Shown here: positions 3,632 to 46,900 of the stretch, in pieces
Numbering within the stretch: the first letter of the stretch is position 1
Layout of the letters: the number at the start of each line of letters is the position of its first letter
DNA from: Panorpa germanica
Taxonomy: Eukaryota > Arthropoda > Insecta > Mecoptera > Panorpidae
Length of the DNA stretch: 64,000 nt
Direction of reading: 5' to 3'
NCBI GenBank assembly: GCA_963678705.1
Contig: OY783210.1
Span: 18,043,331 to 18,107,330 of the forward strand
Notes under the pieces: generated by a model
What the model saw: only the letters and a program-made list of their open reading frames with translations
What the model was told of the DNA's origin: nothing
Databases searched by the model: none
Translations under genes and position numbers: made by a program

Positions 3632-3985
3632 ACTAGCTGTCCCGGCCACGCGTTGCTGTGACTAACGTTTTTGTCATATTACATTACATAGCGCCATCTA
3701 TTGAATATTTACTCAATCTAGTCAACAGAATATTTACTCAATCTAGTCAACAGATGTCGCCATCATCGTCGCCAGATGTCATATGTCATATACAGATAAT
3801 TAATAGACAAATAATTTGCAATAAGATAATATTGCAATAATAAATTGAGATGTAAGCTATCCTATCTTTCAAGTTGGATCAAACTGCACCCGGTGTACAA
3901 ATTTGATTAAAATCGGTTAAGTAGTTTAGGAGTCCATCGCGGACATACAACGTGACACGTAATTTATATATATTAAGATATATAG
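3632..3985 (+). mobile_element. Retroposon-like repeat, copy 1
   Basis: It begins CTAGCTGTCCCGGCCACG, carries the block ATAGCGCCATCTATTGAAT, a direct 25-nt tandem duplication (3703-3727, 3728-3752), and a conserved 3' part with AAAATCGGTTAAGTAGTTTA, GTCCATCGCGGACATACAA and ACGTGACACG before an AT tail (TATATATTAAGATATATA). This organisation, especially the GCGGACATACAACGTGACAC end and simple tail, is known from non-LTR (RTE-like) elements and their SINEs in insects. Copy 2 in inverted orientation lies at 17894-18202. No coding frame; the 60-codon frame across it is incidental. Confidence 0.8.
3703..3752 (+). repeat. Two perfect copies of a 25-nt unit
   Basis: GAATATTTACTCAATCTAGT plus CAACA occurs twice head to tail with no difference. 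The related copy at 18100-18180 has the same pair separated by extra sequence, so the duplication predates the two insertions or was part of the source element. Confidence 0.95.
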
Positions 3986-4574
3986 AAACAAAATGTTCTA
4001 ATACTGTTTCAATTTCATTTTATGGATAACTTGGTACATTATAACCTGAAGTCTTTATAAAGAAGTTTTGTATTTAACCCACTCCGCCATATATGTAACC
4101 TTTTATTAACCAAACACACATCTTCAAGAAACACATGCTTAATTTAATTCACATCACCATTTTGTCTGTCTTTTTATTTAACACTTTATCTTTTCATCTT
4201 AATAAACATTTACATATACATTTATATACGAGTATAAACTTGTCAACATGAATTCATGATCAGTCTGATTTAGATTCAAAACTGAACACGTCTGTGCGTC
4301 CCTTTGCCCGTTTAATTTATGTATTTATATCAATCAGTGTTTGGTGATGGATTTTAAATGTCCGGTCTGTCGTCCAAACACGATTTGTTTACCATGGAGT
4401 GATTATATATGCGTAATCTATAAAATCTGTTGACAATTTAAAGTCTATATGTTATTTAAACATCAATTATAACAGTACTTGTTTACAGCGGAATATCTTT
4501 TATTTGATATAAAAAAAACAATACAATTTTTGGTAGAGTATAATCGATTAAAAATTGAAAATTAATTACCCCGT
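3986..4574. other. AT-rich non-coding stretch
   Basis: Nothing recognised apart from one TACGAGTA motif at 4227 and the AATAAA (minus) at 4499-4504. Confidence 0.6.
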
Positions 4575-4772
4575 CTAGGGCCCTATAAGGGCCTCGTGAG
4601 GCATCCGTGTTACAGCCGCTTCCAGCGCCTTATCAAGAAGTGAGGCCTGCCTCATCAGAATCCTTGCAGTATCTACGGTAGCATTCCACTCAGTATTGTG
4701 AAGCTTTCTACTTTTATTGAACCTATTATTTTGGTAATAACTTGCATAAAACTCTTCGCGCTTTCTTTTCAC
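4575..4772 (-). CDS. GC-rich open frame, possible 3' exon or element fragment
   Basis: The minus-strand frame is basic at its start (MKRKREEFYASYYQNNRFNK), then helical-looking with DTARILMRQASLLDKALEAA, ending at TAG. Its last 130 nt are about half G+C, standing out sharply. An AATAAA signal lies about 70 nt downstream on the same strand (4499-4504 on plus). No convincing acceptor was found, so either the whole frame is a single-exon remnant or the true boundary is hidden. Three short GC palindromes occur inside it (see 4579-4654). It could be the end of a retroelement or of a cellular gene; I cannot tell. Confidence 0.25.
   Translation of the reverse strand: MKRKREEFYASYYQNNRFNKSRKLHNTEWNATVDTARILMRQASLLDKALEAAVTRMPHEALIGP
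4579..4654. repeat. Cluster of three GC-rich palindromes
   Basis: Within 76 nt there are GGCCCT-ATA-AGGGCC (4579-4593), GCCTC-GT-GAGGC (4591-4602) and TGAGGC-CT-GCCTCA (4641-4654). The last two share the GAGGC/GCCTC arm and could pair with each other. They lie in the 3' part of the open frame above and are striking because the surroundings have very little G+C. Confidence 0.7.
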
Positions 4773-6589
4773 GTAAAAAATATTAAATAGTAATCAATTA
4801 TGGTCTTCAAATAGGAATAAAACTCATATAAACAAGAAAACAAGAAAATGTTAACAGCGCAGTTAGTACCTAGACAGTAAATACAATACGCTCTTGAAAA
4901 TAAGCTTGATAAGCTTGATCTTGAGCCATCCTAACAACGTTATCCAACAGTCAGCTTTGAAACAACGCAGCAGTGAATAGCTAATAAGATTTTTATCACG
5001 TTAAGCAGTTGCAACAAACAGGGAAATATAAGAAAGCACTTTTAAATAAAAAGTTGTTATAACATCTACCATCTAAGTCTACCAGACCAAATTTGGAAAA
5101 GACTATAAGTATAATCTGAACCTAATTCCTTAAACCGGAAGTCAGTAATACGACAGAAATTATACTTTTATTAATTTTTTGCTGTAGATAACATTTATTT
5201 CGTTTTGTTGTAGTAACATTTTGATTAAAAATGATATAAGAATCTAATTAAATGTTATACTTGACCTTTATTCTTGACCGTAGAATTAACCTTATAAAAT
5301 TGTTAATATTTAGACATAACCTTCACTAGATAAACAAACTTACAGATCAGAATTTGATAAACCTAGTTAATTATACTATTTTCATTATAAACGACATATT
5401 ACAACATTCCATATATAATTAAAAATGTTTAAAATAGTTTACAAAGTTGTGTTTTTCATGCACTCTTGCAGTGACATAGAAAAATTCGCTGTTCACACTG
5501 ACGTCACTTTTGAATGGTTTTGCGAATTAAAAATGTTTGAGTTTGTTAAATTACGTACAAAATGTATGGTATGAAATGTTGGACACATTATTTGAGTGGT
5601 ATTTTTAATTAAAATTAAAAAAATATATATAATAAGAGTGGTCAGTGGTTAAAGCATATGACAGAGTCGCATTGGAAGATAAATATATTTAGTATGTAAG
5701 TTTTCTGTCATTAATTGTAACAATTTTTATAGGAGATAAGCTGTTCAATATAAATGCTATAACCACTGTATTTATATTTCGATACAATTCACGTAAAAGG
5801 TGTGGTGTTTATCAGAGGATTTATTTAATCAACAGTTTACGTTATCTTTAATGATTTAATTGTTTTTCATTTATAACGTTTAATTTAAATGATAATGTAA
5901 AATTACTATTCTAATCATCTTGTTCGACACTTCTATATAAAACTAGATGAGTATACGACCAGTTAGTGGAAGCATCCGTTCTCGCACCCGTTGGCTTAAA
6001 TCATCTAAATCATCTAATTGCGTAATCTTTCATAATTTACGTTATCTTTGAATACAAAATAAACATTTAATTTTATACTGTAATTAATGTCACCTTTAAA
6101 CTAAAACAGTGTATTTGTATTATGTGTTAGATATATGTATACTTAATTTATATAAATGTATTTGGCTGATTTTCAACAAGCCTATGTGAGGTGCGCTCAA
6201 AAAGTAAAAAAGTAATAAGCACTAATTATTTTACAAAAATCTTTTTTCCATGCACTGTAAACGAACGGGTTGACCGATCTTGTTCAAATTTGGCATAGTA
6301 ATTAAGTACAGTGTTACTAATTTTAGTATCGGTATGGTTTTGGCTTTCGATAACCGATATCAGTTCTCATCACAGTACACCTGTAGCGATCGGGCGTATG
6401 CCTTTGCTCCGCAGTATTGAAACAGTTCGTATCTGAATACACGTTCACTTATATTATTTATTATATTAATTGTGTGCCTTTCGGCTTTACAATCTACATT
6501 ATTATATTTCTTAATGCATTTCATATAAATTCAAAGTTAAAACTAAACTTAAACTATTCTAGACTATTACTACTTCGAATAGTACTTTC
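4773..6589. other. AT-rich non-coding stretch with a repeat-like block
   Basis: 5500 holds a CRE-like TGACGTCA; 5934 is the possible promoter. 6190-6420 (GGTTGACCGATCTTGTTCAA, TTGGCATAG, GATAACCGATATCAG) reads like the end of a transposon, but no partner terminus was found. Confidence 0.5.
5934..5966 (+). promoter_or_regulatory. Possible core promoter: TATA box plus initiator
   Basis: TATATAAA at 5934-5941 is followed at a suitable distance by the initiator-like ACCAGTTAG (A at 5961), then a GC-richer leader-like patch containing GTTCTCGCACCCGTTGG. Insect initiators resemble TCAGTY. Spacing and order are right, but no exon or coding frame can be assigned downstream. Confidence 0.22.
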
Positions 6590-12106: not shown

Positions 12107-12856
12107 GGGGGGGGTCTGGGTTTTCACTTTCGAAAAATCGATTTTTTGTTTTTTGTTTTATCTTATTGTTTAACATTTCAAGAATATGTCCTTAAAATTT
12201 TAAGCCGATCTAAGCAATATTCTTGAAGTTATTGTCTTATTAATCCGGTATATTATATTGTATTATATGTTAATCAGGTATACAGTTTATTCATTGCTAT
12301 AGTCCTGACGCGTTTTTCTCAAAACTACTTTTTCAAAGTCCGTGTTCACTGCCATTTGAAAACTACTCGACCGATTCATTTCAAACTTTGTACACATTTT
12401 CTTCATATAAAATACCTCCCCCCTACGTTTAGTAAAAATTTCTTTTTTAACATTAAGGGTGTTTCCCACCCACAAAATGGCGGAAATTTTAGTCGAAAAT
12501 AACGGTTCACACTTTAGATGGCCGCCAAAAATTTTTAAATTAAAAAAAAAATAATCAGAGAACGTTGGGGGGAAGATTTGTTTATAATTTAACTAAATTT
12601 TTATAGTTTTTCATTTTCTGATAATTTCCGGCCGAGTTACAGTGAACACCGCAAATTGTTTTTTTTTCAAGACGTCCTGGGGGAAGCTCTGTCACGGGCT
12701 AATGATTTAATATTTTTGCATGAAAAATTTACAGAACATAGTCAAAACTATGCTCAACAATGTATAGAAGGTTTGAATAAAATTGCTCAATCGATATTTG
12801 AGATAAAAAATCACAAAAAAAGTGTTTTTTTTTACGCTGAAACCCAGGCCCCTTCC
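12107..12856. mobile_element. TTAA-flanked non-autonomous DNA transposon A (750 bp)
   Basis: TTAA at 12103-12106 and 12857-12860 flank imperfect terminal inverted repeats: left GGGGGGGGTCTGGGTTTTCA, right (reverse complement) GGAAGGGGCCTGGGTTTCAG. Internally there is CGCGTTTTTCTCAAAACTAC and GTCCGTGTTCACTG, with a partly inverted counterpart (GAGTTACAGTGAACACCGC). There is no transposase, so it was mobilised in trans. TTAA duplications are typical of piggyBac and Kolobok; piggyBac ends start with C, these with G, so Kolobok-like is my guess. The 112-codon frame 12656-12994 crosses the right terminus and is not a gene. Confidence 0.75.
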
Positions 12857-12860
12857 TTAA

Positions 12861-14059
12861 AATTATTTTATAACTGCGAAATTTCACTCTCAGAAATTAT
12901 TGCATTATATTTATCAATAAAACAAAACTCACGATTTATATTATTTGATGGTACTTACAATAATTTGAATAGCACATTATCATATTTCAATTAAAGAATA
13001 ATTCTCAAAAGAGATAATCATCATCATCTGCAATTAAATGATGTAAACATTGTCGTCACATAATTATTTCTTTTATTATTTTGATGATTCTCCATTAGCA
13101 AATAAGTTTTCCAATTAAAATCATAATCTACGGGAAGCAATTTGAGTGTGGCACAACTTTAAATTAATATATGATAATTATTACGTAATGTTTTAGACTT
13201 TTGAAATAACATTTAACGAATATACGTATGCGTACAAATAATTGTTACACTGTTAAATATTTAATGAAATTATTTTCTAGTGTTTGTTAGTTACAATGTC
13301 AATGTCAATATTGAAAAAGTTGAGAAAGGTTAAAAGAAATATTTCTAGTTAATAATTATTCAATTGAAACAAAATATGGTTCTAACTTTAAAATAAACAC
13401 AAGTCTAGTGTAAAAAAATTTATGGTTTTAGCATTTTAATTTAAGCAATTATAAAAAATCAATGTCTTTGACAAATACTTTTTTTTAAGTAATTTCAAAA
13501 AGTAAAAACATATAATGCTCTTTAATAATCTGTGTCATGTTTTTCAAATTGAGAGTTTCAAAATTAATAATTATTTATACATTATATAACTTTTGTTTGA
13601 CGTTATATTATTTCCATATTGCATTTAGACATTTTGTATGTACAGTTACATACATTTAAGGTTTATTTAACATAAAAAAGTTTCCGTTAACAAAAATTTA
13701 CGTTTCTAGACTAGGATGATATGTTAGTAAAAGATTTGTATTGTTTTTTGCACTTATTTAATAATACTAAAGTAACGTATATATAGGTTACTAAGTAAGT
13801 AACGTAAGATTACGGATTACATTTAAGGTAAAAAGAATCTAAAAAGTATGATCAGTATGGATGAAATTATTCTTAATTTGTTCTTTTTTCTATTTTAGAA
13901 TTTTCTAATAAATGTTGATATCTCGAAAAATATGACACTTTGACACTAAGAAATTTGTGATTTAATGCTATAATATTAATAAGAATTTTTATAAGTTATA
14001 AAGAATATACCACAGACAATATAATACAAAACATATAATATATGTGTTAGAGTGCGTAT
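12861..14059. other. AT-rich non-coding stretch
   Basis: Nothing recognised. Confidence 0.6.
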
Positions 14060-14143: not shown

Positions 14144-14306
14144 AAGAGCAAGTGCTATATAATTATCTGTGACAACAAAAATAACCTAAAATCGCGTAAA
14201 ACAAATACCAGAGCGGAAGTAGACATTGGTCTTCCTTGACAGATAGCAACAATATAGCGTACCTGTCCTTGCTTTATAGACTTTAGCTATAGTATGCAGT
14301 ATATAC

Positions 14307-14472
14307 CAGAGATGGCAAACCCTCTTATGTACACGTGCTGAAAATTTACACAAAATATTCATAGAATTGCGTGTCAGAGACATTACATATTTAAGATGCC
14401 ACGCTGAATTCTACTCATCTTGTACTCACTCAAACTCTAACTCTAATACATGTCATAGGTTCACCATCCCTG
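14307..14472. mobile_element. hAT-type MITE (166 bp)
   Basis: Terminal repeats CAGAGATGGCAAACC (left) and CAGGGATGGTGAACC (right, reverse complement) match the CAGGGRTGGCNAACC style of hAT ends. The 8-bp flanks GTATATAC and GTTTACAC agree at 6 of 8 positions and have the T at 2 and A at 7 usual for hAT target duplications. The interior is too short for a transposase. Two opposite open frames overlapping it (14186-14383 and 14367-14555) are incidental. Confidence 0.78.
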
Positions 14473-16090
14473 GTTTACACCAAAGAGCTTATCTTATACA
14501 TAACATAGTAAATGTTTTCTGTATTCTTTGCCGATATAATAGATCTCTACTTTAGATCCACACAAAAACAATGTTGTTTTTTTCTGTTATAAAAACACTA
14601 AAACATTCAGTAAAGCTAAAACAGGGGGCTGTTAAAACTAAACGATGTATACCCCAATACCCCCTACCTCACTACCCTTCTATACGAGTACGAGCATGTG
14701 AATAAAATCACAAAAAAGAAGACGAACTATTCAGCCATCGTAGCAAACGTGGTAAATACTGAAGGACTTATAAATAGCGGAATCAAACTTTTATGATCCA
14801 ATAGAATCCATGTGTACATGAGTGTCGACAGAAAATATATAAAAAAAGAAAATAATATTTCCAGTACTTTAATTAGTGAGTTGAATAATTAAATTACTTT
14901 AAACGAATATTAATAATAATTAATGCACTAAAAGTGTAAACTGTAAAGCATGACTTGAATCGCGTAAAAAAAATACCGCTATCAATAAGTTCCGCTAATA
15001 ATAAGGATAAGAAGAAAATCTTGATCTAACATATTATCTATTATAATCATCTCAAAAAACCAGTACCAGTATATAACATAATTCTAAGCCATGTAACTAC
15101 CCTAAATACAAGATTATATATACTCGTACAATAAAATAACAAGTCAAAAAATAATTGTTTTCAATAGCACCTAAAATGTAATCCAATTACTTTTGTGGTA
15201 AAAACGTTACCTTTTTTATCTAGTTTTTTTTCAAGTGTTGGTCATTTTAGTCCCATTGTTTTCTTAACTGGCTTCACAGTGGTTATAGAAACACTTTAAC
15301 AGCGGGGGTGACTTTTTGTGACTTACCGTAGTCTTAACCTATTATCTTTTAGACAGGGGTATGAAACTTTTTGGAAATGTGTCAAATATAGAAATATTTT
15401 GTAATATATTTTGTAATATTTTGTATTATGATTATGATATTGAAATAAGAATAAAGAAGAAGTTACATCAATTAATTTAGAAAGATATTCTTTGTTTTTA
15501 ATAATTATTGGTCACGGTTGTAATAAGTTTTTTGTTATAGGAAGAAGCGTGAATATTGAAGCGTTTTCGTTAATATATAGGCATTGTGCTGGTGTGTTTC
15601 GATTCTATTCCCTAAGCAGCGCTTTATTACAGCGATGTACTTAACTTTTTGTAAAACATATGTAGTATATAGATTACAATTTCTTTCATAATTTAAACTA
15701 TTATAGAAACATGTTATATTGAAGTGGACCTACACTACCTTCAAAATTAATTAATGTACAAAATTAAGTCGCTAAAAAATTAATTCCATATTTTCTGACT
15801 ATTGTATACGTATTTTAATTGTTCTTTTTAGTTTTAAAGGATTACTCGTTTTGTTTACATTTATTAAAGAATTTACTCCTTCTTTTTATCGCTTCAAAAT
15901 ATGGTTATGTACTCCAATGTATTAAAAAGCAAAAAACAAATCGATTCCGTTTTTGGAATTACCCGCGTTTTTGAACGACTAAATATTAGGAATTTTTAAT
16001 TGTTTTAACTATAAAGTGTTTAAAGATGAAAATATCATAATAGGTTTTTCTACATATATACAAAATAAGAATTATATGATTGAAACATAC
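14473..16090. other. AT-rich non-coding stretch
   Basis: A C-rich patch at 14650-14680 is followed by TACGAGTACGAGCATG. Otherwise nothing recognised. Confidence 0.6.
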
Positions 16091-16149
16091 CATAAAATTC
16101 GGTCAATACATAATCATCAGCCGTGGTAGTAATCCGCTGAAGCAGGCTC
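16091..16149 (-). CDS. Candidate 59-nt internal micro-exon, unidentified protein
   Basis: On the minus strand a textbook acceptor, TTTCTCTCTTTTCAG, abuts this segment and the donor GTATGT follows at once (GT at 16090-16089). The segment is clearly richer in G+C than its surroundings. Only one of three frames is open: starting at the second base it reads SLLQRITTTADDYVLTEFY, leaving one base over, so the exon would begin after a phase-2 junction and end in phase 1. The other two frames have stops (after HG, and after MIMY). I do not recognise the protein; the sequence is soluble-looking with no membrane segment. If real, it marks a minus-strand gene whose neighbouring exons are far away. The signals and open frame are seen directly; that it is spliced is inference. 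A chance match remains possible because AT-rich DNA offers many splice-like sites. Confidence 0.5.
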
Positions 16150-17490
16150 CTGAAAAGAGAGAAATCGATTTTGAAAAAAAATATTTATGGATTAACATAA
16201 CAAAAAGATTATTACTTTATGGTATTTAAAAATATAGTTAGTATCCTATATCCTTATATACTCGTATACAAAATGTTACAACAAATATATTAACTAATTC
16301 GAAAGCATAAGTTTCTGCATCCCTGTTTTAGGGGTACTAGTATTTGTAGTAACATAATACGTACGTTATTAAATTAAATGCTATAGTACTTATTACTATC
16401 ATCTATTATTTACTAAGTCTAAGGATAATATTACATCATTACAAGGATACGTATACATGTATCTAGGTATAGGTATAACTAAGTTCATTTATTATTTATA
16501 GCACACGTCATATAAATTATTAGTGTTAGCTTTTATTAGTGATTCTACCGCTCTACTGATATCTTCTGGGAATGTAATAACATTATAACTATGGATCTTA
16601 GTAGATATACTCGTATTATGTGAGGGCAGTTAAGTTTATCAATTGTTGGAGATATGTATAAGTAACTTTATTCTTTAGTTAATAGTTAGTCCATTGGTAA
16701 TAAATGGATCACGTAAAAGAAGAATTTAATAAGAACAATATCACGATTGACAGTTAATATATAAATAATGACTCACTCAAGGTAATTTAATTAACAAAAT
16801 TACGTTAAGAAGAGTCTGATATAGATCTGGTTCTAACAGCATCAATTTGAGTAGCCTGAACTTTTTCTTCAATACAAAAATACTGTTTTGCTTTCTTTTT
16901 ATTTTTGTAATTTACTTAATTTAAAAAATAAACTTAGAATATGAATTTAGAATATAAACTTGAAATTATAAGTTTAGAATACAGAATATAATTAATGTTG
17001 CCAGTGCAAAACACGAAACAAGAACGATACTTAGTTTACAAATAGAACTACTTTTTGTAGCGGACATATTCTTCTTGCCATAAGAAGAGTACTGATTTTA
17101 CAATTCCTACTCATCATCATCATTTCTCTTAACAAATATTTCAAATAATAAAAAAAGTAAATACTCGTATACATGTTTGTATATAGTTTAATTAAATATG
17201 TTATTTAAATTTAATCTAATATTAATGAAGTCACGTTTTAACCTTTAATTCAATACATAAATCTGTTTAGTTTACGTAAGTGTATTTCTTAGTACATCAT
17301 TTTATGTGGGTAAACAAAATTAATTGCCAAATCAAAACTAAAAAAAAAAACGTAACAGGAGGTAATGTTTGTTCAGTACATACACATACATACTCAAATA
17401 TACACGTAAGCATATATATTATAAATAAATACTGTACCTATATAGACACTTTTAATATTTAGATACTTTTACTATATATGAAAACGTATC
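16150..17490. other. AT-rich stretch upstream (minus sense) of the 59-nt exon candidate
   Basis: It contains three TACTCGTA motifs (16259, 16608, 17162) and a small TCTTCTT/AAGAAGA hairpin near 17070. No gene seen. Confidence 0.6.
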
Positions 17491-17492
17491 TA

Positions 17493-17867
17493 CCCAGTAA
17501 ACAATTTGGTGAAGTGTCCTATTTGGTGAAGTTCGAGTCACTCGTACAATTCTATTCTAACGCTTTACAAGTTCTCTACCTGTCACAGATTTTGTGTTAG
17601 TTTTTCATAATAATATTCTTTCTTTTTCCAACATCATTCATTAAGTATTTCTGTTTCTTTCCCACATGGGTATATTTTTATTATCCGGTCATAAATCATA
17701 AACCTACTCCGCTTTTAATTCAGCAGTGAACCGTCGTTGCAATGTCTGTAGCTCATAAAAAGGACCTTTCCTTTGAACGACTGAATAGAAAACGAACACG
17801 TTCCAGACAAAAAATTCATGATACGTAATAAAAATTAAGTAGAATTTACTCCAAAATGTTTACTGGG
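17493..17867. mobile_element. TA-flanked element with CCCAGTAAAC termini (375 bp)
   Basis: Flanked by TA (17491-17492 and 17868-17869), with inverted termini CCCAGTAAACAATTTGGTGA (left) and CCCAGTAAACATTTTGGAGT (right, reverse complement). The right third is homologous to 25400-25596, including the shared GTCGTTCA and ACTCC...GTTTACTGGG blocks. No coding capacity. The TA duplication suits Tc1/mariner-like or other TA-targeting families; superfamily unassigned. Confidence 0.75.
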
Positions 17868-17893: not shown

Positions 17894-18202
17894 CTTAATA
17901 TATATAAATTACGTGTCACTGTGTTGTCCGCGATGGACTCCTAAACTACTTAACCGATTTTAATCAAATTTGTACACCGTGTCCAGTTTGATCCAACTTG
18001 AAAGATAGGATACCTTACATCTCAATTTATTTATCTTATTGCTAATTATTTGTCTATTAATTATCTGTATATGACATATGACATCGGGCGACGATGATGG
18101 CGACATCTGTTGACTAGATTGAGTAAATATTCTGTTGAGTAAATCGAAATCTGTTGACTAGATTGAGTAAATATTCAATAGATGGCGCTACGTTAGGCAC
18201 AT
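17894..18202 (-). mobile_element. Retroposon-like repeat, copy 2 (inverted, 5'-truncated)
   Basis: The reverse complement matches copy 1 almost base for base over the 3' half (GTCCGCGATGGACTCCTAAA, AAAGATAGGATACC, TGTCTATTAATTATCTGTAT, GACGATGATGGCGACATCTG). The tandem unit is also present but interrupted by a short insertion (TGAGTAAATCGAAATC). The match runs to the GATGGCGCTACGTTAG block; the CTAGCTGTCCCGG start is missing. It sits 25 nt after the TA-flanked element ending at 17867. Confidence 0.85.
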
Positions 18203-22745: not shown

Positions 22746-23318
22746 CAGGGGTTAACAAACTTTTAGGTGAGTGCCCTAGATTATAAATAATTTATGTATT
22801 TATATATAAGAGTATTTATAAGAAGTAAAACTCTATGTGTATACATATAACTAGAAATAGTTTTGTACAAAATAAAATAAGTAATACTTTTAATTATATG
22901 AGTATATATTTCTGGGTTGGTACTAAAAGGGTTAATTTTATTTTTCTTTTACAAATATTTCATTTTCTAAACATGAACATGAAATTATTTTTTGACAAAA
23001 AGTTATAGCGCAATTCTTTCAAATAGTAATTTTTGTTTCCAATGCGAAATTTTGACATTCGCTCTTTTAGTTCCAAATAGTATATACCTTTTATGAAAAA
23101 TATATTTGTTCCTAAAATTCTTATGCAAACGGAGAACATTATGATTTTAAATTTACATTTTCTTTGTTCTTCAGAAATTAACATAACGAACAGTTTTAAC
23201 ATATCTAGTGTATAACTATTGTTTTTAAAGTTGATTAATGTTACTTGAAATAAGAAATTAGTTTCTTAGTAAGTAATAACAACATATTAGTTCGCCTGCA
23301 TTAGTTTGATAGCCACTG
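22746..23318. mobile_element. Decayed hAT-like element (573 bp)
   Basis: It starts CAGGGGTTAACAAACTTTTA and ends, as reverse complement, CAGTGGCTATCAAACTAATG; both fit hAT termini. Flanking octamers TTCTACTT and TCCTAGTA agree at 5 of 8. The interior is AT-rich with an 80-codon minus-strand frame (23202 to 22960) of lysine/isoleucine-rich, unremarkable sequence, so no transposase is recognisable. Confidence 0.6.
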
Positions 23319-27530: not shown

Positions 27531-28965
27531 CATCACTAAATAAGTTAGTGGGATGACATATAGATGGCGGTACTATTAAAAAATCCATATAATTTTTAGA
27601 TAGTACCAACCTTCAAACGATATGTGTCAAAATTTCGTGACATTCCGATCATTAGTTTACAAATTACAGAGGTTTTAGTGACGCTACTTTTGTAATTTTC
27701 AAAACAATTTTGGAAAAGTAATTTTAAGAAAAACTGTTGGCTTTATGTTAATATTCTGAGAATATTTCACAGAAAACAAAAAAAAAACGTCTTTAGGTCC
27801 TAAACGTTCAGGAAATACACAATTTAAATCCTGATAATGCTGCGTAGAATTAGCTATTATCAAAAATTAGAAATAAAAACATTTGTGTTATGGTGTTATA
27901 AATTTAATGTTACATTATGTTTTAAAGTAAGAATATTGAGAACCGCTGAACCCTTCGGTTATGTGGCTGTAAGGTAAACTTTACTTAACTTTGTGTTTGT
28001 TTTAGCTTAACTTCAAGTTTGCATAAGACGTACCAAAGCAATAGGCTTAACATTGTTTTACACTGTATAATATTATTTGATAAATATTTAAAAAGAAAAA
28101 AATGAAATTTATTAAAAAGTAATCATTATTATTATTTTATAAGTAAGTTATTGTAAAAATTTGATAAAAATCTTTTATTAGAGGTGTAAATAAGTTGTCA
28201 AAAGTCTTATCTTTATTTAATTTACTAATATAAATGTTCAGTTTATTATGTTATACTTTCGTTGTTTTGATTGTTGAATCGTAACAACTTTATTAACGTC
28301 TGACACCTGACAGTTCAAATGGAAAAGTAACAAAAGGTGTTGTTCAAACAGTTCAAACAATGTTATTTTCGTTAGCTAAGTTTTTATCTTTTTGTACACT
28401 TACCACAAAAAAATAATAGAAATAAGTTTGTAAATTTAGCAAATTCTACCATGAAAATTATTAAAATATTTGAAATTTGAGCACAGGTGCATATAGAAGG
28501 TGTTAAATATTCCGATAACAAATTTGAAGAGGTTGAAAGAGTCTAAATGGAATTATTCTAATATAATGTGCCTTGGTTTATACTGGATGCACAAATATCT
28601 TCTGATACTCTTGTCTTTGTTGAATAAAAATTGAAACAACATTTATAGTAGCAAGATCTATAGCATAGTGTATCTTTTCTTCTTCTTACCTCATGTTTAC
28701 AGTATTTTTTCCTACTAAAAAACAATGCTTGCCTAAATATAATAGTAACAACACACAAAATATAAAGTATTCCATTGTTTTGAAAATTACAAAAGTAGTG
28801 TCACTGAAACTCCTGTAACTTGTAATCTAACGGTCCGAATGTCATGAAATGTTGACACATATCGTTTGAAGGTTGGAACTATCTAAAAATCATATGGGTT
28901 TCTCAATAGTGACGCCATTTATATGCCAACCTACGAACTTATTGAGTGTGATCTGACATATTACT
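27531..28965 (-). mobile_element. Decayed mariner-like element with long inverted repeats
   Basis: Arms of about 180 nt (27533-27708 and 28776-28963) are inverted copies: TAGATGGCGGTACTATT / AAATGGCGTCACTATTG, TTTTTAGATAGTACCAACCT, TCAAACGATATGTGTCAA and CTACTTTTGTAATTTTCAAA. Immediately inside the right arm, on the minus strand, ATG (28775-28773) begins a frame reading MEYFIFCV and, after a short insertion, GKHCFLVGKNT, the start expected for a mariner-family transposase. The frame is soon broken and the middle of the element has no recognisable catalytic domain. The fragment at 34275-34445 is a second copy of the same end. Confidence 0.75.
28650..28775 (-). pseudogene. Mariner-family transposase, N-terminal remnant
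   Basis: After the inverted repeat the minus strand starts MEYFIFCV, has extra hydrophobic codons (about 16 nt not present in the 34.3-kb copy), then GKHCFLVGKNTVNMR, after which similarity fades. KHCFL.GK is the helix-turn-helix start seen in this mariner group. It is truncated and inactive; no DD34D catalytic region is visible downstream. Confidence 0.6.
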
Positions 28966-29527
28966 ATTTTATGAAAACTAACTTTTTCTAAACTCTATTA
29001 CAAACGATATCAAAAATTGTAAATAGCTAAAGATTAACTACAGATAAAAGATTTAAAATATCACATTAAATTTTCCCTAATCTGCATGCTAATTACTGAA
29101 TACAAGTATTTTGCTTTAGAAAATGGTTTTCCAATTACGGTTTCTCGTAATTCGGTTTCTAGTATATCGATGTAGCCAACACCCTGTGTATACATCCACA
29201 CATGTATTACAATGTAAATTAGCATGGTAGTACTACCAGTACGTTAGCTTGATTTTTCTTAGTACATACTTCGTTTCACGGTTGATCGGATCGTCAGCAT
29301 GCTCGTCTACCACCTCCGACCGTCACTGTGAATGGCTGTTCACTTGTTCATGATCATGGTAAGGGGGCGTCCATAAATTACGTGAGATGTTTAAGGGGGG
29401 GAGGGGGTCGAGTCAAATCTCATCTAATCTTCCGTTGGAGACAGGGGGGGTCTCGGCAAATATCACGCAATTTTTTTTCTGATTGAACCAAAAAAAAATT
29501 ATACTATTTTGGTCCATTTAATCTAGA

Positions 29528-29815
29528 TTGTACATGCTTAAGGCCTGTCTCAGTATGGGACCGTATTTAAGCGAATTTCTGCCGGACGTATACGGGCTAC
29601 TACGCTTTACCTATCCGAACCATGTAAATGTAATGAGATCGCTCTGGAGCTCTCAGACTGCACGCTACAAAGCCGTCCGAATACGGGCGGCACTACCTCG
29701 CACAGTAGAACCGAATAAAGGCGAATTTTATCCAAGCGTTACCACTACTACAACGATACCCTATCCGAACCTTTGTAAATGCAAAAAGCCGCCTCAGACT
29801 GGAGGGGATACCTAA
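29528..29815 (+). CDS. 95-codon frame inside the Harbinger-like element, doubtful
   Basis: The frame starts MYMLKACLSMGPYLSEFLPD, has TYPNHVNVMR and later PYPNLCKCKK (the two halves of the internal duplication), a threonine run and a CKCKKPP end. A second frame (29779-29994) overlaps it out of phase. The open state may only reflect lower A+T. I recognise no transposase or zinc-finger domain; CKC alone is not enough. It could be captured host sequence. Confidence 0.15.
   Translation: MYMLKACLSMGPYLSEFLPDVYGLLRFTYPNHVNVMRSLWSSQTARYKAVRIRAALPRTVEPNKGEFYPSVTTTTTIPYPNLCKCKKPPQTGGDT
29562..29805 (+). repeat. Imperfect tandem duplication of about 150 nt in the element's cargo
   Basis: Ordered matches are CCGTATTTAAGCGAATTT (29562) and CCGAATAAAGGCGAATTT (about 29711), CTATCCGAACCATGTAAATG (29611) and CTATCCGAACCTTTGTAAAT (29761), and CTCAGACTG (29652 and 29793). 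Offsets are 141-150 nt. The flanking element is well preserved while these units have diverged, so the duplication is older than the insertion. Confidence 0.7.
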
Positions 29816-30455
29816 GATCTCTTGTTGTTACGGTGCAATACGAGTCAAATGAAATCTATCGGCGACATGGGTATGTTCTGCATGCAGTTTATGTTTGTAT
29901 TTCAGTGAATCATGGACACCGATACCGATACCAATACGATAGAACTAAATTTCAATTCACGCCCACCAGAACTCAGATATATAATAAATGCTAAAGTCCC
30001 TTTAATACCAGTAGTGTATCGATAAAAATTAAAGTTAAAGTTTGCTCTTATAATAAATTATATTAATGCTAAAGAACTCCAATACACCCCCTAATACACG
30101 ACTACTGACATCTGCTGAGAGCTGAGTAGCAGCGACACACGGACAGGTTCCAACCTTGCTTTGTTTATTCTTGTAAATGTTTTACTCGACTCAGTGCATG
30201 CTCTTACTAATTTAAAATGAGTTTAATGAATTACTAGTCTTAACTAGTCGTAAATAAAAGCACGAAGCAAATTTTATTTTTCTTTTTACAATAACAATCC
30301 AACGCGTTTACGTAAGAAACCCACATTTTGAAAAATCTCACGTGAGATTGGGGGATGGGGGAGGGGGTTGAATAAAATCTCACGACATCTCACCAGGGGG
30401 GGAGGGAGTGACAGAAAATTTAAAAAAACACCTCACGTAATTTATGGACGCCCCC

Positions 30456-33400
30456 TAATCCACAATCCGTCACCAATGCATTTTATTACAATAACCACTT
30501 ATAATGTCTGAAGTATTATATTCTTATTCTCTCTCTTTGAAAAGAACATACATACATGTCTACGAGCACATACAAGAGCCGCAATTTTAATTACTTTGTC
30601 ATAAATTACGTTTCTTGTGTATCAGTATCAGTAATAAAAACAAGTATGTGACATTTAGAAATATGTTTAAAATATTTATAAATATAATGAAAAGTTGAAG
30701 TAAAGAGATAGGATGATTTAAGGAATAAAGAAGTTATGTTTCTATCATTGCAAAAAAAAAATAATTTTTGTGTAATTCAAATTGAAATAACCAGAAGCTA
30801 CTATAAAATTTAGACTTCTTAAATTAATTTCTTAGGAGAGAAAAAATGGAAGTATATTCCTCTTTGATAAAGGCCGAGATGGATTATTATAGACATTTTG
30901 AATAAACTGTTTTCATCTCACTAAAACTTCATTTGAATCCGCCAAAAAATGTGATAGCTTTTCTTTTCTAAAGAATGTTTTGAGGTCTTGATAGGGCCGT
31001 ACTAAACTTTTCAGTCTGGGAATTATTCATAGCTCTTAATCTGGCTTTGAAAATATAACAAAATAGACAACAGAATCTTGCTGAAATGTTATTTTGCTCA
31101 AAATTCGTGATAATCTTTTTAGGGTCGTTTTATTTAATTCTCTGACTACTGAGCTTTGTTATAAACTTTGGTTAACACTTTAGTTCTGCAGCTCTCATTT
31201 TTTATCAAGTAGAACATAACTGTAGCTTAACTAAACAAAATGTCACAGTAACATTTTTTGTTAACTACGGTCAATCATCGACAAAACTATAAAACTATTT
31301 TTTAGGGTAAACTTTAGTTATACTTTAGTCTAAAAAATAAAACTTCTACACCTGTTATAAGATTCATAAGTTTTATCGTTTATCATCTAATAATATTAGA
31401 TCTTAACCGTACTTTAGAACACGAGTTGTTAATTATAAGTCAAAATAAGGGTCAAAGAGATTTTGAAAAAGCGCTTAACACTAATGGACGCCAAAAATAA
31501 GTAATAAAAAAAGTTCCATCGCTCTTATAAGGGTATTAAATTTATTTAATGTGAAAACAAATATTGTGATAATTTTCAAATATTTAGAATGCTTGTGACA
31601 ATTCAAATAAATCCGCACCCATTTTGGCCAAGTATAAGCCGTTATGGGTTACACTTTATACTATGTAAATATCGTCCTAAATTCCATAACTCCGTTGGAA
31701 TTTCTTGTGTTTGACAGATTGTGTCGTAGAAACAATTCCGTTTTCATCGTATCTTGAATTTTATATTCAAGCATGTAGTTTTATGACTGAATACAATGCC
31801 ATAAATTATTAAATTGCATTCTAACATGGAAATATGACATAAACACGTCTCCGTATTATTGTTCCAGAAAGTCAAACAAAATTTAGAATAGCTACAATAT
31901 AAATACTAGCTTTTGTAAATGTATCATGGGATATTACCTAATACCATTTGTAGTTTAAAAGAAACCAGGTTTTGATATATTGCTCCCTGAATGCAGATTA
32001 ATACTGTCAGTACCACGTTATGGCAAGCGTCCATTGATCAGTAGTCATCCAGTGATTTATTGTAGAAACAAAGAAGAGAAGGGAAAGCGGAGAAAAACTT
32101 AATTTTTGAATTAGCGCAACAACTGAAACAAGTATCGTAGAAATACCTTCATGTGGTCCTATCCAAATTTGATTATGAGAGATCATATAATATCAGATTT
32201 CATTCTATCTATTGTCAATTTGTTAAAGGTTGGTTTAGCGGTCACTTGATGCAGTTACCAATTATGTCTATAAGATAACGTGCTGTTGTGAACAGTACTG
32301 CGTAAATGGTATTTATATTATAACTTTTTACTTAATTTATAAAAGTAATTTGTCAGACAGTAGAAATTTCATGACTTTGAATAATAAATTACAAATATCT
32401 TCTGTCACTTCATACAAACGCTGTTGTAATTGTTTTTTTTTTTTTAATTTTAAGTACAGGCCCATAGCTAATGAAAATTACTCATTTGCTTTAGTGTTTT
32501 TAATTTGAACGGCACCATTTTTTGGTATTACATTGTTTACGGTTATCTTTAAATAATAAGTATTTTATTGTTGGAATATACGTTGGAGCACGTGATGATT
32601 TTTAAAATTATCTACGCATCGAATTAGTTACCGCGATTAACAGTTTTTTGTTTTAAATTATATTCTGTAGTCTTCAACGTATATAATCAACAGGAGTATG
32701 TATAGTTTGGTATACACATGTATGTAAAAAATGGAATAGTATCGATTTATCGTTCGTATTGAGGACGGAGATTTGATCTGATTGTATAGGAAGACTACAT
32801 ACTTTCATTTCACATACTAAATCTTTACTTTGCATGTCCATATTGATAACTGGAGATGTTACAATACAAAAACGTGGTTAGATTATGTTATACAACAACA
32901 ATAGGTAAGAGGTTTTATCCTTTAACTATTTGTAACATAATAAATGACAGACAAGTCTCTGCGTGTTCATGTCAGACATCTTAATTCATTCGAGTCTAGA
33001 GCTAGCTATCCAGTTGTAGTACACACTTGTATGTACTATAGAATTCTGTAGTAACGTTAAACCTAAGTTCTGCTGAAAGCAGACCACAGCCAGCATCTTC
33101 TGACATCTCAGCTCAAGCACACACAGACGCAGCCACAGACATAGCACAGACAGATCTCTCGGAGGTATTCGGATGAAGATTATATAACTTAATGTCTACA
33201 ACGTTTAAAACTTAAAGAACTAATTAATAATCGTAATGGCTCGTTAATATGTTCGTGTATTTTATGAGGATGATTGAATGAATGAAATATTTCAAGGAAA
33301 TGTGAGATCTTAAGCTAGTATTTTGTGTTTTACTAAGTGAGGTGTATGAAAGAATTAAGATTTAAATGTTTTGAGTAAATTCTAATATTGTAAATGATAT

Positions 33401-34274: not shown

Positions 34275-34445
34275 ACTATTATAACCTTTAAATGAAATGT
34301 GACAAAATTTCATGACAATTCAACCATTAATTTATGAATTACAGTGGTTTCAGTGATACTACTTTTGTAATTTTCAAAACAATAGAATACTATAAAATTT
34401 GTGTGTTCATAAAGCATTGTTTTTTAATGGGAAAAAGTATCTTAA
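34275..34445 (+). mobile_element. Mariner-like 5' end fragment with transposase start
   Basis: TGTGACAAAATTTCATGACA, ACAGTGGTTTCAGTGATACT and ACTTTTGTAATTTTCAAAAC repeat the inner arm of the 27.5-29.0 kb element; then a frame reads EYYKICVFIKHCFLMGKS. The initiator ATG of the related copy is ATA here. Similarity ends after about 170 nt and no second terminus is found. The 74-codon frame 34334-34558 includes this piece. Confidence 0.7.
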
Positions 34446-43970: not shown

Positions 43971-46900
43971 AGTGATTTATTCATAAATGAAGTTAGAAGC
44001 GACTGTTTCTAATTCATTATCTTCCTGACTACTGCTAAATAGTTTTAAATGAACGATTCATTTGTGGGTGGCTTAGAATCCATTAACTAATTTTACGATC
44101 ATCGATTACGAAATACCTTAAATACCTTTTAAAGTATAAACACTATTTGACAAGGGTTTCTATTCTTTTAAAATATATTATCCTTGTCATTTCTTGTGGT
44201 CAATCGAATTGTTTCTCTTTTTTTCTTATTGAATTCTTTTTAAGATTTAACAAAGTTATTGATGTTTTTAGGCACCTTTTTAAAACGAATATAAGGTAAA
44301 ATCTTTTAACCTTTATTTTATTTTTAAAATCTCGCATCAGAATTCGAGGTAGCTCAACACAGCGCTCTATTAAGATAAAGATCATCTAGACTTGTGTTTA
44401 TAGTGTTTAGACATGTCTTGGAGAGATATAATACAGCTTATAGTTTATACAGACGAAGACTCAGACGCAGACGACGCTTATCAAGAAGACTTTGAAAAGT
44501 TGAGAATTTATACACATCAGAAGTGGGAACTGATAAAACATTTGGAGATTTATTATAGGAAACGTATTGACTTTAAAATACAGTACGTTAAGTAATTATA
44601 GAAATGGTTAAATATTGATTGTTGCAGCAAATAATACTGATAGATTAGAACATTCAAAAATTGGAAAATAATTCATATATTAGAAATGAATGAATCAATA
44701 TGATGAAGTGGTTTCATCCGCATATTTCCATTCCCTTTTCTAAAGAGCTTGTTTAATATATGAGATACCCTTAAACAAAATATTAATATCCCTTTAGAAG
44801 GTAGATATTGTTCCGAGAAAAACATTTAACTTTTCATATATCATCAAACCTTTCGTTATTAGCTCGAGCACATAAACAATAAATTATTGACCTGAAATGT
44901 TATTGATCTCTAGCGCTAGAGTACGAGTATTTCCCTCTGAATTCTAAATCAGGTATTAGCCCTTAGCTGTTCAGTGGCCAAATCAGCTATTAGCTATTGT
45001 AGGTAGGTGTAGGTGTATGCTAGCTTTGAACAACACTTTCTATAATACAAGTTTCTATCACTAATAAACTTGACTGAAGTGAGGACTGGCTTTGATCGGA
45101 CATAGGTGAGATAACGAGAACAATCCTCTCTCTCCCTTCTCCTTACTACTTCTCAATCATTATCCCCCGTTCGCCACAGGACTTAACAACATAACCTTCA
45201 CAGTTTGGGGTTTAATTGGTTTAACCCCCGTGTTTAGTGGAGCGTTTCTTATCCCTTCTACGTTCTATACTTAACTTTTATATGCGGCTTTGGCTTTGTA
45301 CGAGTATGTACACTGTACACTTTCTTAGAGCTCTCTTTATTCAGCTATTAAGAGGGTCTTATACCATTAAATTGCATTGAATTTTAAATGAGATAACATA
45401 ATAGATAAAGAGTACTTTATCTTTTGGAGTACATTTACTTGCAGTATGCATTCTATTGGATGTTAACTTTGGTAGTATCGTGATAATGGTACACCCCAGT
45501 CGTTTATTATAATTAAATAAGAAGATTTAACTAAAATAACTTTATAATCGATTCATCTATAAAAAATACGCAAAACCAGTAGTCCAGGCCAGTCGATATT
45601 TTAGTCGTTAAAATATGTCAAACTTATCAAACTCAGGTTTGCCCGTTCATATCATATCATATCACATTCACGTTGGGACTTGGTTTGATTCCTAATTGCA
45701 TTTATTTATTGCCAAATTGGAAAAATATGCCAATAGGTTTAATGCCACATCTTAAAAAGTTCCAAGAGTTCTCGTTCCCATTTGAGCCCCAGTTGTTTTC
45801 TAACACTAAGATTAAATATTAATTTGGTAAAGCTAGTACTTCGATGGCTTCACAGATACGATGGCGAAAAGATACGCGAATCTGGTTAGTTATTATATGA
45901 AAAACAGTAAAGAATCTATGTCAAAATATCTAATGTTTTAGTTATAAAACAACTGATTAGCCTGACATCCGAAATTTGAAGTAGGTCATTACCACCCGGA
46001 TTGGTTTTTAAAGTATTTAAGGTATAACATTGATCCTCCCTAGGTAAGATTAAAGTTTCTGCTGATTAGTAACGGCATTATAACATATTTATACAAATCG
46101 TTCCAATATCTCGAAAACACAAAAATTGACTTGACCCCAATTTTTAATTAGGGTTCAACTAATTTTATATATATAGGGGTACATATAATTTGCGTTTCTA
46201 AATCAATTACACAATTATTTTCATTTATGTGTTGGCTATTAATGTGGATGTTAATATTTTTAATACACTTATAATACATAAATAATATTCGTTGTCAATT
46301 GTTACTCTGTACATAATAAGACCAACTGTATCTCGTGACTATCTGGCAACACATTTTCGTTGTAAATGCACAGCCGAACTTTTAAAGTAAAATAATTGCT
46401 TACATATGTTTTTTCATTTTGTAAATTATGACGATAAAATTTCAATTTTACACTTCCAACAAATATTCCCTTATTATTTTCTTGTAGTTTAAATTTATTA
46501 ATTAATTTATTATATAAAAAACGTATTAAGGTATGTAATATTTCTGTTATAAAATTGTAAGAAATGATATAAACATTTTTATCATATAGTTGCTTAAGAA
46601 ATAAGCGCTTTAGAAATATAGAACTTTAATAACGAACTCTTTACATTAATTTTTGAAGTTTTTATTAAAAATATAAAGGAAAATGTTGACAAGCATTTAA
46701 CTTACGTCGTGATATTTTGTACAACGTTTTAATAACATGTCTATTTATAAATAAATTAACACATCACATCTTAATGAGTTATTTTCTTGAAGGAAATGGG
46801 AGGAGAGAAGAAAATACAAATAATTATAAGTTAAAAATAACGAAAAAATATTGAAGCAATTTATTATTTTTATATAATAATTTATATAGTATTTTAATAA

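Follow-up and report, generated by a model that had tools for sequence, protein, structure and literature searches.

We concluded that, within the window (the whole 64-kb stretch of DNA that was analysed), the 59-nt minus-strand segment 16149-16091 is probably a canonical GT-AG internal exon, and a coding one, of an ordinary minus-strand host gene. The segment starts with GAGCC directly after TTTCTCTCTTTTCAG and ends with TTTTATG directly before GTATGT, and reads AG/GAGCCTGCTTCAGCGGATTACTACCACGGCTGATGATTATGTATTGACCGAATTTTATG/GTATGT with its splice dinucleotides. The original prediction had described splice signals, a minus-strand open frame and a GC-richer 59-nt island at this place, and every one of these elements was recovered where it had been put. 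The positions of the segment, its splice signals and its possible neighbours are collected in Table 1.

Table 1. Candidate exon, adjoining splice signals and possible partner exons, with positions in the window.
Feature	Position	Strand	Detail
Candidate internal exon, 59 nt	16091..16149	minus	SLLQRITTTADDYVLTEFY; splice ranks, GC step
Candidate 3' end of upstream intron	16150..16215	minus	pyrimidine-rich TTTCTCTCTTTTCAG
Candidate donor GTATGT	16085..16090, starting at 16090	minus	rank 38/3416 on strand
Possible upstream partner exon, 73 nt, phase-compatible	17708..17780	minus	VQRKGPFYELQTLQRRFTAELKA; weak donor GA/GTAGGT
Possible downstream partner exon, 75 nt, phase-compatible	14263..14337	minus	RVHKRVCHLWYILHTIAKVYKART

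Splice sites were scored with untrained, hand-written matrices that approximate general knowledge of insect splice sites. With these matrices, the acceptor ATCGATTTCTCTCTTTTCAG, which runs up to 16150 and directly precedes GAG, ranked first among the 3066 scored AGs of the minus strand, and the donor GTATGT ranked 38th among its 3416 scored GTs. Both ends agree with the U2 type, with an AG acceptor and its pyrimidine tract (TTTCTCTCTTTTCAG) on one side and a GT donor on the other. The next AG lies about 65 nt upstream of the acceptor, so that no AG intervenes between the acceptor and the branch-point candidate, a TTAAT-like word chosen by eye about 40 nt upstream. This word is weak evidence, since AT-rich DNA should contain many of its kind. 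Among open AG..GT units of 30-400 nt on both real strands, 16149-16091 had the highest score (11.5 bits), followed by units of 10.8 bits on the minus strand and 10.4 bits on the plus strand. The decoys, which were the real window reversed or complemented, almost equalled it with best splice scores of 11.3 and 11.3; therefore, splice strength alone is unconvincing for this segment.

In the minus direction the first nucleotide of the segment completes a codon and one nucleotide remains at its end. Minus frame 1 is open from 16149 to 16091 (SLLQRITTTADDYVLTEFY), while frames 0 and 2 contain stops; on the plus strand, one frame is likewise open over the segment. A stretch of 59 nt at 44% GC often has at least one open frame by chance (an estimate, not a computed value), and thus the open frame is weak evidence. 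The GC content of the segment is 0.441, against 0.17 and 0.20 in the adjoining 100-nt flanks. Taken alone, this GC level is unremarkable, and 5.8% of all 59-mers of the 64-kb window reach 0.44 or more. What stands out is the sharpness of the GC step.

The main rival to an internal exon is a chance pseudo-exon, in which a strong acceptor that is not used coincides in non-coding DNA with a donor of fair quality and a small patch of higher GC, and the spliceosome ignores them. We regard this as rather unlikely, and much of the evidence on splice strength is compatible with it. Besides the nearly equal decoys, comparable splice sites with an open segment occurred in 36-52% of simulated windows: an acceptor, a donor and an open segment of 30-400 nt at this total score were present in 37, 52 and 36% of windows under Markov nulls of order 1, 2 and 3, respectively, each with 300 simulated 64-kb windows. 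When a GC content of at least 0.44 was added to the same splice score and open segment, the values were 3.7, 2.7 and 2.0%. The real sequence is patchier in GC than these nulls, and 10.2% of its open AG..GT segments of 30-120 nt have a GC content of 0.44 or more vs. 2.2% of the simulated ones. Under a patchy null that retained local GC patches, with 400 windows for each block size, such a unit with GC of at least 0.44 was found in about 8-12% of windows (11.75% with 150-nt blocks and 7.75% with 300-nt blocks). A statement in PMC3098058 likewise puts decoy exons in human introns at approximately tenfold the number of real exons. The lack of a homologue in Pfam, PDB and viral or prokaryote DNA and of a significant exon chain, both described below, would also fit a pseudo-exon.

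The GC step points the other way. It was defined as a GC content at least 0.24 above that of both 100-nt flanks, and none of 180 simulated windows had a step located exactly at both splice sites together with this splice score, compared with 6 of 180 for a score of 9 or more. On both real strands, 16149-16091 was the sole segment of 40-200 nt with such a step and a splice score of at least 4; one decoy segment, with a splice score of 8.8, also showed it. The GC step is mainly why the coincidence exceeds chance, and the open frame contributes little. Combined with the splice score, it is moderate evidence for a real exon, given that the criteria for the GC step and for the flanked anchor discussed next were set after the finding and are partly post hoc.

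Two candidate partners, 17780-17708 and 14337-14263, each lie less than 2 kb from 16149-16091 on the same strand. Under thresholds that were chosen post hoc, 3 of 400 and 1 of 400 simulated windows contained an anchor with such phase-compatible flanking candidates. A blind chain search with the laxer penalty returned 17780-17708, 16149-16091 and 14337-14263 as the best minus-strand chain, with a score of 15.0; with the stricter penalty, 14337-14263 was dropped and the first two exons were kept at a score of 9.7. The null means for the best of both strands were 18.3 (laxer) and 14.6 (stricter), from 150 windows each. The plus strand scored above the minus strand (22.8 with the laxer and 18.8 with the stricter penalty), and so did the decoys, at 18.4 and 19.9 with the laxer and 16.4 and 15.0 with the stricter penalty. 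What drives these plus-strand and decoy scores is mainly the codon composition of segments rich in GC, for instance plus-strand 33042-33164. The coding signal of 14337-14263 was close to nil (+0.6 bits), and exon-candidate rows showed no excess on the real strands (4 and 7) vs. the decoys (15 and 7). The three-exon chain, promising by the post hoc splice-only thresholds, was therefore rejected as an established structure and is a lead rather than a result, because the blind test put it below the null, the plus strand and the decoys. We consider it very unlikely that the segment is a coding exon specific to its lineage, or belongs to a set of small exons used in a mutually exclusive way, within a long gene that has no described protein family, perhaps with this very chain.

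The codon log-odds of 16149-16091, calculated with an approximate codon table, was +3.6 bits, a weak coding signal. The original prediction had called the segment the strongest sign of a cellular gene in the window. This held for the splice score and for the splice score with the GC step, by which it came out top on either strand, but not for the codon-weighted score, where it reached 7.1 vs., for example, 17.0 for plus-strand 33042-33164, a segment with poor splice sites. Searches of PDB returned nothing for the 20-mer, the 41-aa stop-free frame or the joined two- and three-exon models, and Pfam returned nothing for the 20-mer or the 44-aa joined model and nothing usable for the partner-exon frames of 17708-17780 and 14263-14337; 19 residues are too short for detection in Pfam or PDB unless the relative is close. 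A PHD_like hit to a 68-aa joined model (13.1 bits, E 0.1) was under the cut-off of 27 and was disregarded. Degenerate back-translations, which have little power, gave 0 matches for ADDYVLTEFY in viral contigs and 0 matches for DDYVLTEFY plus one base in prokaryote genomes, and peptide strings had 0 matches in literature text. To our knowledge, no parent protein has been described for this peptide.

The weak coding signal, the estimated frequency of open frames over 59 nt and the lack of a protein homologue in PDB and Pfam would suit a real but non-coding exon, belonging to a 5' UTR or a long non-coding RNA, with an incidental open frame. We consider this improbable, since the GC step suits coding at least equally and nothing specific was found in favour of a non-coding exon. 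Membership of 16149-16091 in a cellular gene is likely but unproven, in view of the absence of a homologue in these searches, of a clearly supported neighbour exon and of a strong coding signal.

An old transposable element fragment or a structured small RNA that is GC-richer by chance is hardly credible as an origin of the segment. The window has at least one further GC-rich island that is repeat-like, the inverted-terminus element 29363-30455, which gives such an origin some plausibility; however, 16091-16149 lies outside the three direct-repeat families listed for the window and outside the 25 inverted pairs listed out of 96. An Rfam scan gave no family match at the gathering score and a tRNA scan no match, and folding of either strand was not clearly better than that of shuffled sequences (z from -0.69 to 0.87). 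The Rfam and folding results together rule against a structured non-coding RNA.

Several repeats were observed elsewhere in the window. The element at 29363-30455, of approximately 1.1 kb, has perfect 24-nt inverted termini (GGGGGCGTCCATAAATTACGTGAG and its complement), lies in the GC-richest part of the window and looks like a MITE-like, non-autonomous DNA transposon; its terminus was not found in viral contigs (23 bases used) or in literature text. One repeat occurs as inverted copies at 3713-3945 and 17925-18147, which are 96-97% complementary and lie about 14 kb from each other. Three related repeat arms occur at 27534-27708, 28774-28948 and 34283-34407; the first and second are inverted relative to each other, with 1065 nt between them, and 86% complementary. 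The word TACTCGTA is over-represented window-wide, with 13 occurrences over both strands vs. 1.8 expected (e.g., at 1040, 8899, 15121, 16259, 16608, 17162 and 26960), as is TATACTCGTA, with 7 vs. 0.25 expected.

Among the scanned frames of this AT-rich window, Pfam recognised no protein family. The scans comprised 10 translations from four regions, at E up to 5, and the ORFs 12593-12994, 29522-29815, 12287-12592 and 22960-23265, a minority of the listed ORFs; 15 further regions were inspected by eye. The plus-strand interval 12593-12991 carries a 133-residue stop-to-stop frame that is partly protein-like (QDVLGEALSRANDLIFLHEKFTEHS...) and had no Pfam match; its pattern matched 27 viral-contig stretches, none of which was confirmed as a relative. 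At 44413-44592 on the plus strand lies a frame of 60 residues that starts with ATG and contains an acidic stretch (MSWRDIIQLIVYTDEDSDADDAYQEDFEK...), also with no Pfam match. On the minus strand, 4578-4793 holds a frame of 72 residues that terminates in MPHEALIGP-stop and whose 3' part is GC-rich (GC 0.64 for the 59-mer from 4569); the scanned part of this region, 4530-4752, had no Pfam match.

Considering the signals at 16149-16091 and their coincidence, both directly observed, we infer that the segment is transcribed, spliced and coding and that a parent gene exists, and propose the following model. A minus-strand host gene would be transcribed, and the major (GT-AG) spliceosome would recognise the segment as an internal exon. 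Recognition may proceed by exon definition, in which the segment would stand out from AT-rich intron DNA by its strong acceptor, its donor and its sharp GC step. The segment would most likely code for about 19 residues. Its length of 59 nt is not divisible by three, so that skipping would shift the reading frame; thus, if the exon is coding, constitutive inclusion is more likely than free skipping as a cassette. The surroundings, as had also been predicted, would be intron of a minus-strand gene only provided that the exon is real. In that case, the AT-rich window would sit inside a minus-strand gene that would escape an ORF or domain search owing to the shortness of the exon. If the exon is not real, the segment would be an example of how frequently strong splice sites surround an open segment by chance in 64 kb. 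Either reading represents ordinary eukaryotic gene anatomy, with relevance to annotation rather than to biology at large.

Three known systems can be compared with 16149-16091. A recursive-splicing ratchet point resembles it in having a strong acceptor within apparently non-coding DNA. In a ratchet point, as described in PMC8605326, a donor is juxtaposed to the acceptor (AG/GT), whereas GAG instead of GT follows the acceptor that ends at 16150, and a ratchet point was therefore ruled out. Pseudo-exons, or decoy exons, share the splice-like ends flanking a short open segment (PMC3098058); they differ in the GC step, which at both ends of a segment with this splice score was seen in 0 of the 180 simulated windows. 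With the canonical U2-type (GT-AG) small internal coding exon, the candidate exon 16149-16091 agrees throughout its predicted anatomy, having an AG with a pyrimidine tract, a GT donor, a GC-richer body in AT-rich DNA and one open frame.
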